NCBI GenBank assembly: GCA_012976225.1
Contig: JAAVVG010000018.1
Location: 310,001-374,000 of the forward strand
DNA length: 64,000 bases
Direction of reading: 5' to 3'
From: Golubevia sp. BC0850
Taxonomy: Eukaryota; Basidiomycota; Exobasidiomycetes; Golubeviales; Golubeviaceae
The notes beneath the pieces are model-generated. The model worked only from the letters and a program-made list of their open reading frames with translations. It searched no databases and had not been told where the DNA came from. The translations under genes and the position numbers were made by a program. Numbering within the stretch: position 1 is the stretch's first letter; each line of letters starts with the position of its first letter. Below, in pieces: positions 95-46,839 of this stretch.

Positions 95-688
95 TCAGAA
101 CTTATTCCATCCAGCAGAGTGACGGATCTTGTTGAGATCTCCGTCTCCGAGTTGGTCTTGTCCACCGCAGTTGGTCGCATCAGAAGTACCGAAGTGCTTC
201 TTGCTGTAGAGAGCGCAGGTCTGAGACATGGTAAGTGATGAAAGAAGTTAGTGATGGTGTTCAAATTTGAGTCGAGAAAAAGATTGAGAAAGGAAGCAGT
301 CTACTCACAATTCCATCTTCCTTGGCCGAGTTGAAGTCGAGGTAGGTGTTGACGAACTGGCACCCTGAGACAGAAGCTGTGGAGGCCGCGAAAGGGAACA
401 AACAACTTCTGTTAGCAGATTATCAAGAATAAGATCGGATCTCAGTATCTCGACTCCTTTGATCCTCTGTCGCCGTCACCGCCTCTACTCACAACAGAAC
501 TTCCAGCACTCTGCAAGTGAGTCCTTGATGGAATAGGTCAAGTAGTCCGGGGCTTGAGTAGCACAAGTCTTCTCAAGGAAGGAAAAGGCGTAGATCTCGG
601 TGCGTTCTTCCAGGGCTGGCGCAGCGGAGACCAAGCTGGAGGAGGTGGCGATCAAGAGGAGAGAGGCGAGGGTGGCGGTGAATTGCAT
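95..688 (-). CDS. Small secreted cysteine-rich protein, family copy A
   Basis: Three exons (688-493, 376-309, 220-95) give 129 residues. A signal peptide occupies about residues 1-22 (hydrophobic core, then VSAAPALEER). The mature part has a CWKFC pair, an SVSGC-x-FVN motif, a TCALYSKKHFG segment and one more cysteine in a TNCGGQDQ motif. This layout resembles the PAN/apple-like small secreted proteins that basidiomycetes carry in multiple copies ('fruit-body-specific' type); that link is from memory of the pattern. Molecular function is unknown; it should be extracellular or in the cell wall. Exon lengths (196, 68, 126) equal those of copies B, C and D, which fixes the model. Promoter and exon 1 are almost identical to B and D, but introns and exons 2-3 have diverged (about 8-15% in the exons), so the gene is a mosaic. 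Residue 31 is E and residue 49 is L, where the other copies have G and M. Confidence 0.88.
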
Positions 689-976
689 CTTGACAGTTGT
701 CGATGGTTTGAAGGTTGGTTAAGAGAGGAGAGTAGAGGTAAATTGAGATGAGAGAAGATTGTTGGAGTGAGGAAATTGAAAAGAATGGGACATTTGACGC
801 TGCTTTTATACCCTTTCCCGTCGAGAAGGAACTGCTCCCAACGCAGAGTACAGACGACCCAAAGAAGGTTAGTCAAGGTGAGATCTGGCTCCTCCAATCG
901 CTGACTATTGGACATCCAAGACAGGGGAGAGAGTGAGGCGAGGAGGCGAGAGGATCAAGAAGCCCAGGCACGTCGT
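493..976. repeat. 5' segment of copy A nearly identical to copies B and D
   Basis: About 480 bases covering exon 1, the leader and the promoter match the corresponding parts of copies B (26.0-26.5 kb) and D (45.9-46.4 kb) with only a few substitutions. At the four promoter sites where B and D differ, A has the B state. Similarity falls sharply at the exon 1/intron 1 junction (493/492) and again near 976, beyond which only a short TTGCGGAT element is shared. Confidence 0.8.
804..912 (-). promoter_or_regulatory. Copy A promoter: TATA box and inverted CCAAT pair
   Basis: On the minus strand a TATAAAA box lies at 810-804, about 115 bases before the ATG. Further upstream TCCAAT and ATTGGA face each other 8 bases apart (912-907 and 898-893). 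The arrangement is the same as in copies B and D. CCAAT boxes are bound by the HAP/NF-Y complex in fungi; occupancy here is inference. Confidence 0.6.
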
Positions 977-1256
977 CGACGACTGCCCTTGAAATCCGCA
1001 AGTGGGTGGGTATCGCTTGCACTGCATTTGAAAAGTGTTATTATACTCTGATCGGCTATCTCCTCAAACCTTCGCAAAACATTTGATATCTCTCAACCCA
1101 GTTCGAAGACCCATTCGCAGGCAAAGAAAGAGTGGTGTGGGTTCACTCATTTGACATCCAGCCTGTATTATCTTGACAACAAAGGGTCACTCAGCTTCCT
1201 AAGATTGCCCATCCCCAATCTCTCCTTTCTTTTGAGTTACAAAGTCTTTTATCTGA

Positions 1257-26026: not shown

Positions 26027-26128
26027 ACCTTCCACTTGCGGATTGGTTTCACAATTCACAGTCGACGACGTGCCTGGGCTTCTTGATCCTCTCGCCTCCT
26101 CGCCTCACTCTCTCCCCTGTCTTGGATG

Positions 26129-26237
26129 TCCAATAGTCAGCGATTGGAGGAGCCAGATCTCACCTTGACTAACCTTCTTTGGGTCGTCTGTACTCTGCGT
26201 TGGGAGCAGTTCCTTCTCGACGGGAAAGGGTATAAAA
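26129..26237 (+). promoter_or_regulatory. Copy B promoter: inverted CCAAT pair and TATA box
   Basis: TCCAAT (26129-26134) and ATTGGA (26143-26148) form an inverted pair; TATAAAA is at 26231-26237, 116 bases before the ATG. This is an unusually complete promoter for this window. Confidence 0.6.
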
Positions 26238-26352
26238 GCAGCGTCAAATGTCCCATTCTTTTCAATTTCCTCACTCCAACAATCTTCTCTCATCTCAATT
26301 TACCTCTACTCTCCTCTCTTAACCAACCTTCAAACCATCGACAACTCTCAAG

Positions 26353-26946
26353 ATGCAATTCACCGCCACCCTCGCCTCTCTCCTCTTGATCGCCACCTCC
26401 TCCAGCTTGGTCTCCGCTGCGCCAGCCCTGGAAGAACGCACCGGGATCTACGCCTTTTCCTTCCTTGAGAAGACTTGTGCTACTCAAGCCCCGGACTACA
26501 TGACCTATTCCATCAAGGACTCACTTGCAGAGTGCTGGAAGTTCTGTTGTGAGTAGAGGTGCTGATGACGAAGTATCAGAGGGGTCGCGATGTTGAGATT
26601 GCATCTCGTCTGTGACCTAATTCTAACCAAGTACATCTCTTTCCTTCTTCACCCTTACAGCCTCGGTCTCAGGTTGCAACTTCGTCAACACTTACGTCGA
26701 CTTCAACTCGGCCAAGCAAGACGGAATCGTGAGTAGACGCTCCCACTGTCATCTTATCATCAGCTTGACTTTGAATCTCGATACTGACTATTTTTCCTCT
26801 TCTCTCCTCCTATGTCACAGACCTGCGCTCTATACAGCAAGAAACACTTTGGCACCTCTGATGTGACCAACTGCGGCGGACAAGATCAACTCGGAGATGG
26901 AGACCTCAACAAGATCCGTCACTCTGCTGGATGGAACAAGTTTTGA
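26353..26946 (+). CDS. Small secreted cysteine-rich protein, family copy B
   Basis: Exons 26353-26548, 26661-26728 and 26821-26946 encode 129 residues. The signal peptide is about residues 1-22, followed by ALEERTGIYAFSFLEKTC, the CWKFC pair, SSVSGCNFVNTYVDFN and the C-terminal HSAGWNKF. The protein is predicted to be identical to copy D and differs from copy C only at the last residue (F versus L). The repeated cysteine pattern suggests a disulfide-bonded secreted domain of PAN/apple-like type; function is unknown. The protein is small enough to be a surface or effector-like protein, but nothing here shows interaction with a host. It lies between CPA2 and CBP80 and is transcribed toward CBP80. 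Confidence 0.92.
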
Positions 26947-34947: not shown

Positions 34948-35541
34948 TCAAAGCTTGTTCCATCCAGCAGAGTGACGGATCTTGTTGAGGTCTCCATCTC
35001 CGAGTTGGTCTTGTCCGCCGCAGTTGGTCACATCAGAGGTGCCGAAGTGTTTCTTGCTGTATAGAGCGCAGGTCTGTGACATAGGAGGAGAGAAGAGGAA
35101 AAATAGTCAGTATCGAGATTCAAAGTCAAGCTGATGATAAGATGACAGTGGGAGCGTCTACTCACGATTCCGTCTTGCTTGGCCGAGTTGAAGTCGACGT
35201 AAGTGTTGACGAAGTTGCAACCTGAGACCGAGGCTGTAAGGGTGAAGAAGGAAAGAGATGTACTTGGTTAGAATTAGGTCACAGACGAGATGCAATCTCA
35301 ACATCGCGACCCCTCTGATACTTCGTCATCAGCACCTCTACTCACAACAGAACTTCCAGCACTCTGCAAGTGAGTCCTTGATGGAATAGGTCATGTAGTC
35401 CGGGGCTTGAGTAGCACAAGTCTTCTCAAGGAAGGAAAAGGCGTAGATCCCGGTGCGTTCTTCCAGGGCTGGCGCAGCGGAGACCAAGCTGGAGGAGGTG
35501 GCGATCAAGAGGAGAGAGGCGAGGGTGGCGGTGAATTGCAT
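34948..35541 (-). CDS. Small secreted cysteine-rich protein, family copy C
   Basis: Exons 35541-35346, 35233-35166 and 35073-34948 encode 129 residues, identical to copies B and D except for a final Leu. Introns are also the same as in B and D. At the two exon 3 sites where B and D differ, C carries the D state. The upstream region has diverged: on the minus strand the TATA box has become TACAAAA (35663-35657), the paired CCAAT boxes are gone, and only a distal element with CACTTGCGGATTGGTTTCAC and CAGTCGACGACGTTCCTGGG remains. The coding region is intact, but expression may differ from that of the sister copies. Confidence 0.9.
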
Positions 35542-35640
35542 CTTGAGAGTTGTCGATGGTTCGAAGGTTGGTTAAGAGAGGAGAGTAGAGGTAAATTGAG
35601 GTGAGAGAAGATTGTTGGAGTGAGGAATTTGAAAAGAGTG
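34951..35640. repeat. Copy C segment nearly identical to copies B and D
   Basis: Gene body, introns and about 95 bases of leader match B and D with a handful of changes. Similarity drops about 100 bases upstream of the ATG and at the stop codon. Confidence 0.85.
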
Positions 35641-35641
35641 A

Positions 35642-36460
35642 CAGATTCTGCTCTGCTTTTGTACCATTTCGAGCTTCGAAGGGAGGGGTCGACCGATCCA
35701 GAAACAGAGGAAGAAAAGACGACTCGTGTCTCTAAGACAGAATACAAGATAGAAGGCGATGAGATGAGATTCGCTTCCTGTAATCACTGAGTAAAGAGGG
35801 TTCAGCCCCGGAAAATGGAGCGAAACGAGGAGACGAGAGAATCAAGAAGCCCAGGAACGTCGTCGACTGTGAAAGTGAAACCAATCCGCAAGTGGAAATC
35901 GGAAGAAGGTCCATTCTTCCTACCTTTGCAGTTCAAAGATCCAATCGAAATCAAATTTTCTCATCCGAACAGAAGTCCTCTTCCTATAACGAGCAGACAC
36001 ACCTCCATCTCGATGCAGCAAATTTCCTCCCCGTCCAAGTCCACAGAATCAGGAGTAAGAGAAATCGATTATTGGCATTGGGCAAAGAAACAAAGAACAC
36101 CGACTAGCGGTAAAAGAAAAAAGTGTTCTAAAGAGTTCAAAAACAGGAAAGAGAATTGGAATAAATAAGGTATTGTATGAGAAATAGATAGTGATGAGGA
36201 CAAGGTGTTCGTTCAAGCTCAATGAGAGAGAGAGACTAAAGGAAAATGAGGAATCAAAACGTCGAATATGAGATGAGGTAGATGAGATGAAATTGGATCA
36301 GAAGTTTTAAATGATGCCGAGAAAGATAATGAAAGTTTTATGAGATGAGCTGACTTCGAACTGACTGAAGGTTACTGTTCTTCAAGTCTTGGGATTCTAT
36401 GAAATGAGAATGATGTGTTGAGAGACGAAGCAAATGAAATTTACTATTTCTTCAATTTTC
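35642..36460. other. Intergenic, diverged copy C promoter and flank
   Basis: About 820 bases. 35825-35900 keeps the distal upstream element seen before copies B and D. The remainder, toward the GPI glycoprotein gene, shows no gene. Confidence 0.55.
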
Positions 36461-45919: not shown

Positions 45920-46021
45920 ACCTTCCACTTGCGGATTGGTTTCACAATTCACAGTCGACGACGTTCCTGGGCCTCTTGATCCTCTCGCCTCCTCGCCTCA
46001 CTCTCTCCCCTGTCTTGGATG

Positions 46022-46130
46022 TCCAATAGTCAGCGATTGGAGGAGCCAGATCTCACCTTGACTAACCCTTTTTGGGTCGTCTGTACTCTGCGTTGGGAGC
46101 AGTTCCTTCTCGACGGGAAAGGGTATAAAA
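46022..46130 (+). promoter_or_regulatory. Copy D promoter: inverted CCAAT pair and TATA box
   Basis: TCCAAT 46022-46027, ATTGGA 46036-46041 and TATAAAA 46124-46130, all placed exactly as in copy B. Confidence 0.6.
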
Positions 46131-46245
46131 GCAGCGTCAAATGTCCCATTCTTTTCAATTTCCTCACTCCAACAATCTTCTCTCATCTCAATTTACCTCT
46201 ACTCTCCTCTCTTAACCAACCTTCAAACCATCGACAACTCTCAAG

Positions 46246-46839
46246 ATGCAATTCACCGCCACCCTCGCCTCTCTCCTCTTGATCGCCACCTCCTCCAGCT
46301 TGGTCTCCGCTGCGCCAGCCCTGGAAGAACGCACCGGGATCTACGCCTTTTCCTTCCTTGAGAAGACTTGTGCTACTCAAGCCCCGGACTACATGACCTA
46401 TTCCATCAAGGACTCACTTGCAGAGTGCTGGAAGTTCTGTTGTGAGTAGAGGTGCTGATGACGAAGTATCAGAGGGGTCGCGATGTTGAGATTGCATCTC
46501 GTCTGTGACCTAATTCTAACCAAGTACATCTCTTTCCTTCTTCACCCTTACAGCCTCGGTCTCAGGTTGCAACTTCGTCAACACTTACGTCGACTTCAAC
46601 TCGGCCAAGCAAGACGGAATCGTGAGTAGACGCTCCCACTGTCATCTTATCATCAGCTTGACTTTGAATCTCGATACTGACTATTTTTCCTCTTCTCTCC
46701 TCCTATGTCACAGACCTGCGCTCTATACAGCAAGAAACACTTCGGCACCTCTGATGTGACCAACTGCGGCGGACAAGACCAACTCGGAGATGGAGACCTC
46801 AACAAGATCCGTCACTCTGCTGGATGGAACAAGTTTTGA
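46246..46839 (+). CDS. Small secreted cysteine-rich protein, family copy D
   Basis: Exons 46246-46441, 46554-46621 and 46714-46839 encode 129 residues, predicted identical to copy B; the two exon 3 differences are silent (CACTTT/CACTTC and CAAGAT/CAAGAC). The signal peptide and cysteine pattern are as described for copies A and B. The 3' flank differs from that of B immediately after the stop codon, which shows that the duplicated unit was promoter plus gene without a terminator region. Confidence 0.92.

Follow-up and report, generated by a model that had tools for sequence, protein, structure and literature searches.

Probable gene conversion across the promoter and first exon of one member of a nine-copy secreted-protein gene family

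Gene conversion is a well-known copy-and-paste process that keeps scattered gene copies alike. Interlocus tracts in yeast had an average minimum length of about 500 bp in one study and of 200–300 bp in most of the follow-up work, and re-estimates of yeast tracts run from about 50 to several hundred bp, according to the available portions of PMC3924818. We have examined a window of 64,000 nucleotides (C9:310001-374000) from a genome of 25.77 Mb in 64 contigs whose gene structure, in our judgement, looks fungal, with particular attention to a small gene near its start, referred to here as copy A. It is very likely that copy A is a separate member of its family and that a copy resembling B (below) on the same contig recently replaced its promoter and exon 1 (455–499 bp) through interlocus gene conversion, presumably non-reciprocal; the remainder, from intron 1 to exon 3 together with the outermost edge of the promoter, would have kept other sequence, closest to that of the copy P90.

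Copy A lies on the minus strand, from the start codon to the stop codon at 95..688, and encodes 129 amino acids in three exons (688-493, 376-309 and 220-95) separated by introns at 492-377 and 308-221, all on the minus strand; the protein contains six cysteines and an N-terminus that, judged by eye, resembles a signal peptide. Contig C9 carries nine copies of this small secreted-protein gene, spanning about 344 kb and in both orientations. Comparison of the window with itself by BLAST places B (+), C (-) and D (+) at approximately 26, 35 and 46 kb, and five further copies lie outside the window, namely E, at 433 kb, and P90, P164, P217 and P229 (named by position in kb). No repeat emerged when the first 20 kb of the window was searched against itself, because the other copies sit beyond it. 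Copy B (26032..26946, plus strand, from CCACTTGCGGATT to the stop) is the nearest match to A in the tract and represents the putative donor lineage. The unit of copy D (45925..46839, plus strand) is 98.9% like B in a 937 bp alignment, although their 3′ flanks are unlike, with no match at z > 4. Copy C (34948..35895, minus strand) is a reverse mosaic, of B/D type from about the 5′UTR to the end of exon 3 and with a promoter of C/E type. We note that P90 (C9 90132-90716, within C9:88500-93000) is without the usual acceptor dinucleotide of intron 1 and donor dinucleotide of intron 2, which may reflect alternative splicing or decay.

More distant relatives of the family are present on other contigs. 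Equal-scoring related genes occur in four pairs, on C44, C4, C15 and C62, the two members of a pair lying about 11 to 106 kb from one another on a single contig; with two of the four pairs compared, this hints at close exchange or duplication confined to one chromosome. The two copies on C44 are 99.5% identical over 1032 bp, and one of them has an upstream flank in common with a third copy; conversion and fresh insertion would both fit this pair. As to the identity of the protein, the Pfam PAN/apple model PAN_4 (cut-off 27 bits) scored 14.3 bits with B and gave no match with A, and among three pieces of distant paralogs it scored 14.8 bits with one and did not match the other two. None of the four copies scanned matched an NCBIfam model, a single PDB match (E = 0.22) was taken as chance, and the nine-copy family is not named in the titles and abstract openings through which we searched the literature.

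Our alignment of the nine copies reaches from 800 bases 5′ of the start codon to 450 bases 3′ of the stop codon. Over 482..980 on the minus strand, the widest extent of the tract, A is identical to B at 496 of 499 positions, with mismatches at 694, 597 and 541 and the nearest differences outside at 981 and 481; A differs from D at seven positions in the same interval. The outermost sites within it at which A agrees with B, and P90, P164 and P217 all differ, are 969 and 515; the tract is therefore between 455 bp (515-969) and 499 bp long, and its 3′ switch falls within some 34 bases (481-515). Diverged homologous sequence flanks the tract on both sides (edges 969-981 and 481-515), along the whole of the 3′ side but, towards the promoter, for only some 25 bases, on which the placement of that edge depends. 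Taken by segment, A matches B at 183 of 192 positions in the distal promoter (the nine mismatches and a single gap are all at the outer edge), 124 of 125 in the TATA/5′UTR segment and 194 of 196 in exon 1, and then at 63% in intron 1, 58 of 68 (85%) in exon 2, 66% in intron 2 and 115 of 127 (91%, in a range counted one base too long) in exon 3. The near-identity reaches non-coding sites, with one difference in the 292 bases of the promoter and 5′UTR portion of the tract; this portion includes the sequence TATAAAA (804..810, minus strand), common to A, B and D, which we take to be a candidate TATA box of copy A. The introns of A align best to those of P90 (75% in intron 1 and 84% in intron 2), and intron 1 of both A and P90 is 58–63% like that of B. 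Four promoter sites distinguish B from D (969, 961, 866 and 864), and A has the B base at all of them, although they are of unequal weight: 969 is a clear change shared by A and B, 961 is private to D, the base at 866 is common to P90 and P164, and 864 is ambiguous. Two sites in exon 3 also distinguish B from D (191 and 155), and at both of these A has the D base.

These measurements bear out most of what had been proposed for copy A. The original prediction, of a conversion tract of about 480 bases, is well supported, with both measured ends inside the homologous unit, and its range of 95-976 fits a gene whose stop codon ends at 95, a tract that begins at 969-980 and a unit homologous from about 1005. 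The predicted likeness of about 99% to B and D, the divergence of exons 2 and 3 by about 8–15% and the B state of the promoter sites are likewise found. The sharp switch placed at 493 is real, but it can be located only within 481-515 and is not fixed at 493, and the introns of A, which were said not to align, do so with P90 and less closely with B.

We have compared the alignment with the expectations of a single history. In our own GENECONV-style test (378 polymorphic positions among 871 ungapped columns, 36 pairs, 2000 column shuffles), the score of the 499 bp A-B fragment with its three mismatches was not reached in any shuffle across the 36 pairs tested. Twenty-two of the 36 pairs have a global p < 0.05 when no mismatches are allowed, and 28 when they are, but we do not claim each as an event because rate differences along the gene can raise such values; P217-P229, which are identical, and B-D are beyond the judgement of column shuffling. 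Single-tree simulations of eight copies, with separate rates for promoter, exons and introns and gamma shapes of 0.3, 0.8 and 2.0, reproduced the observed scores for A-B, A-D, B-C, B-E and C-E in none of 500 replicates at each shape (P229, identical to P217 in the unit, was left out of the simulations and of the trees of the tract and the remainder). The tract tree joins A with B (85), adjoining D (99), whereas in the tree of the remainder B, C, D and E form one group (100) and a split separates A and P90 from the other copies (100); the two topologies are discordant, and each part rejects the tree of the other (AU p = 0.0002 and 1e-174). Neither a uniform substitution rate along the alignment nor a common topology for its two halves, the two observations named in advance as telling against conversion, was thus encountered.

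Copy A is not special in this regard: sharing on a comparable scale, of part of a gene or of the whole unit, is seen in C, E, P217/P229 and B/D. No difference separates B, C, D and E between the start of exon 1 and the end of intron 2 (467 bases including the introns). In the distal promoter, C and E agree at 90% with each other but at 68–70% with B and D, and they are thus reverse mosaics with a B-type gene body and another promoter. In the alignment, where the start codon is at column 1058, their B/D-type stretches begin at about columns 962 (C) and 1025 (E) and end at columns 1659 (C) and 1620 (E), short of the stop. P217 (C9:216537-217554) and P229 (228175-229192), which lie about 11 kb from each other in inverted orientation, agree at every position of 1018 bp and differ in the sequence beyond. 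Reading polarity from promoter breaks was dropped, as the C and E tracts exclude the promoter.

The sequence of A beyond 981 resembles that of the P90-type copies. The 5′ edge of the unit, outside the tract at 981..1005 on the minus strand, consists of CCACTTGCGGATT (993-1005) followed by TCAAGGGCAG, as in P90, P217 and P229 and unlike B, C and D. CCACTTGCGGATT is found at the 5′ edge of seven of the nine C9 units, with a one-base variant in E and no clear match in P164; it has eight matches in the genome, one of them outside the family on C43, and may mark a former border of the unit or serve in upstream control. Flanks were scored as matching at z > 4 against 200 block shuffles. Within the 450 bases 5′ of the unit this holds for four of 36 pairs (P90-P217, P90-P229, P217-P229 and, at some distance, P164-B), and within the 300 bases 3′ of the stop for 26 of 36 (A-B, 73/92), these being diverged but homologous, which argues for old loci. 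We considered the unit as a mobile element in view of its sharp-looking 5′ edge, but the homologous 3′ flanks argue against this. A stretch 280-390 bases 5′ of the B unit is 78% (83/106) like one upstream of P164, a trace of an older shared flank. The flank tree groups C, D and E (99) and separates P90, P164 and P217 from all the other copies (100), with A, B and P229 poorly placed (65 and 45).

The flanks also bear on the opposite course of events, in which A was once B-like throughout and its segment from intron 1 to exon 3 was replaced from a P90-like copy. The introns of A are indeed closest to those of P90, and its 3′ flank is not P90-like, being homologous to B and also to C (59/69). However, differences of 25% and 16% between the introns of A and P90 are too great for a recent transfer, while the 5′ match to B is nearly complete, and at its outermost promoter edge A does not resemble B; we thus regard such a replacement as very unlikely. 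Near the stop the 3′ flank of A is most like that of C, and at greater distance it is most like that of P229 (46/49) and not that of P90 (33/40), so that it does not follow the introns, and the P90-like introns are therefore possibly the product of an older exchange. This mismatch between flank and introns is the main misfit to a single simple event, and it leaves the recent A-B tract untouched.

A second alternative is that assembly or polishing placed reads from B into the 5′ part of A; near-identical repeats of 1 kb are easily confused, and the analysis drew on the assembled sequence. Three bases of the tract in A are nonetheless found in neither B nor D, and mosaics with other ends are present in other copies, which makes an artefact of this kind highly improbable. 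Unequal crossing-over, or a chimeric duplication fusing the 5′ half of a B-like copy to a 3′ half of other origin, predicts a single sharp switch within the gene, but two are present (969-981 and 481-515); moreover, A and B face in opposite directions at a distance of about 25 kb, such that one crossover would invert the interval, and the 450 bases upstream of their units do not match at z > 4. The chance that either process made copy A is accordingly slight in the extreme. Least credible, with a probability close to nil, is that purifying selection on the promoter and exon 1 alone has held the 5′ part alike: the two parts presumably both have a function, and most comparisons give a dN lower than dS, but A and B have no synonymous differences at about 46 sites in exon 1 against 17 at about 41 in exons 2 and 3 (Fisher 3e-7), so protein selection is not the cause of the likeness, and for P90-P164 and P164-P217 the exon 1 dS is 0.20-0.75 (signal and mature parts taken apart), with distal promoters 50–51% and proximal promoters 68–72% alike. 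Since both ends of the tract lie within the homologous unit, gene conversion from a B-like donor is the best explanation.

It had also been proposed that conversion kept the secretion signal and promoter alike while the C-terminal half varied, and this our results do not support. Ten pairs were drawn from the copies A, B, P90, P164 and P217; mature exon 1 exceeds exons 2-3 in dN in nine of them, and in five of the six without P90, whose splice sites look damaged. For example, values for mature exon 1 are 0.067 for P90-P164, 0.166 for P90-B and 0.106 for P164-B, against 0.041 in exons 2-3. The half taken to be variable is therefore the more conserved one in the family. The sole exception is A-B (0.020 in mature exon 1 and 0.034 in exons 2-3, with two residue differences in exon 1 and four in exons 2-3), whose exon 1 was exchanged. 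Copies C and E have the opposite layout, a homogenised body and an unlike promoter. We thus see no sign, in dN among the five copies or in the layout of C and E, that conversion works in such a way as to protect the secretion signal.

Under the conversion we favor, a break in A would have been repaired by strand invasion of a B-like paralog, leaving a tract of about half a kilobase that ends where donor and resident are too unlike, in intron 1 and at the outer edge of the unit. The direction, as read from one genome, would be from B to A; B and D are the likelier donor side because they hold the whole haplotype and A, C and E only parts of it, and the reverse path, of an A-type promoter into the ancestor of B and D, seems to need more events. 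Copy A would then now be driven by the B/D promoter, a consequence deduced from sequence. A broader proposal, that promoter and coding modules are exchanged independently between copies across the family, the B/D haplotype donating repeatedly, we hold to be rather unlikely; if true, expression and protein sequence would be reassorted among loci, through the promoter and exon 1 in A and the body in C and E. The family represents concerted evolution without tandem arrangement, with sub-gene tracts common to copies tens to hundreds of kilobases apart and in both orientations. Trees of the nine copies are misleading unless split by segment, and orthology assigned from the promoter and exon 1 of A would conflict with that assigned from its introns.

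The copy A mosaic is a further case of known ectopic gene conversion. Its tract of 455–499 bp is like the interlocus tracts of yeast in measuring hundreds of bases, although those described in the available portions of the yeast account come from marked experimental constructs and that of copy A is an evolutionary reconstruction (PMC3924818). The paralogs of Aspergillus flavus and A. oryzae, in the parts of that report at hand, likewise show repeated conversion among homologs of one fungal chromosome region; that study covers two species and reports gene splitting and loss, whereas ours draws on one genome (PMC12844118). In the GOT1 paralogs of Tigriopus californicus, as far as the accessible text describes them, conversion has produced mosaics of high and low divergence within genes and hence new combinations, as in A, although that case concerns an animal and made use of population data (PMC3728101).
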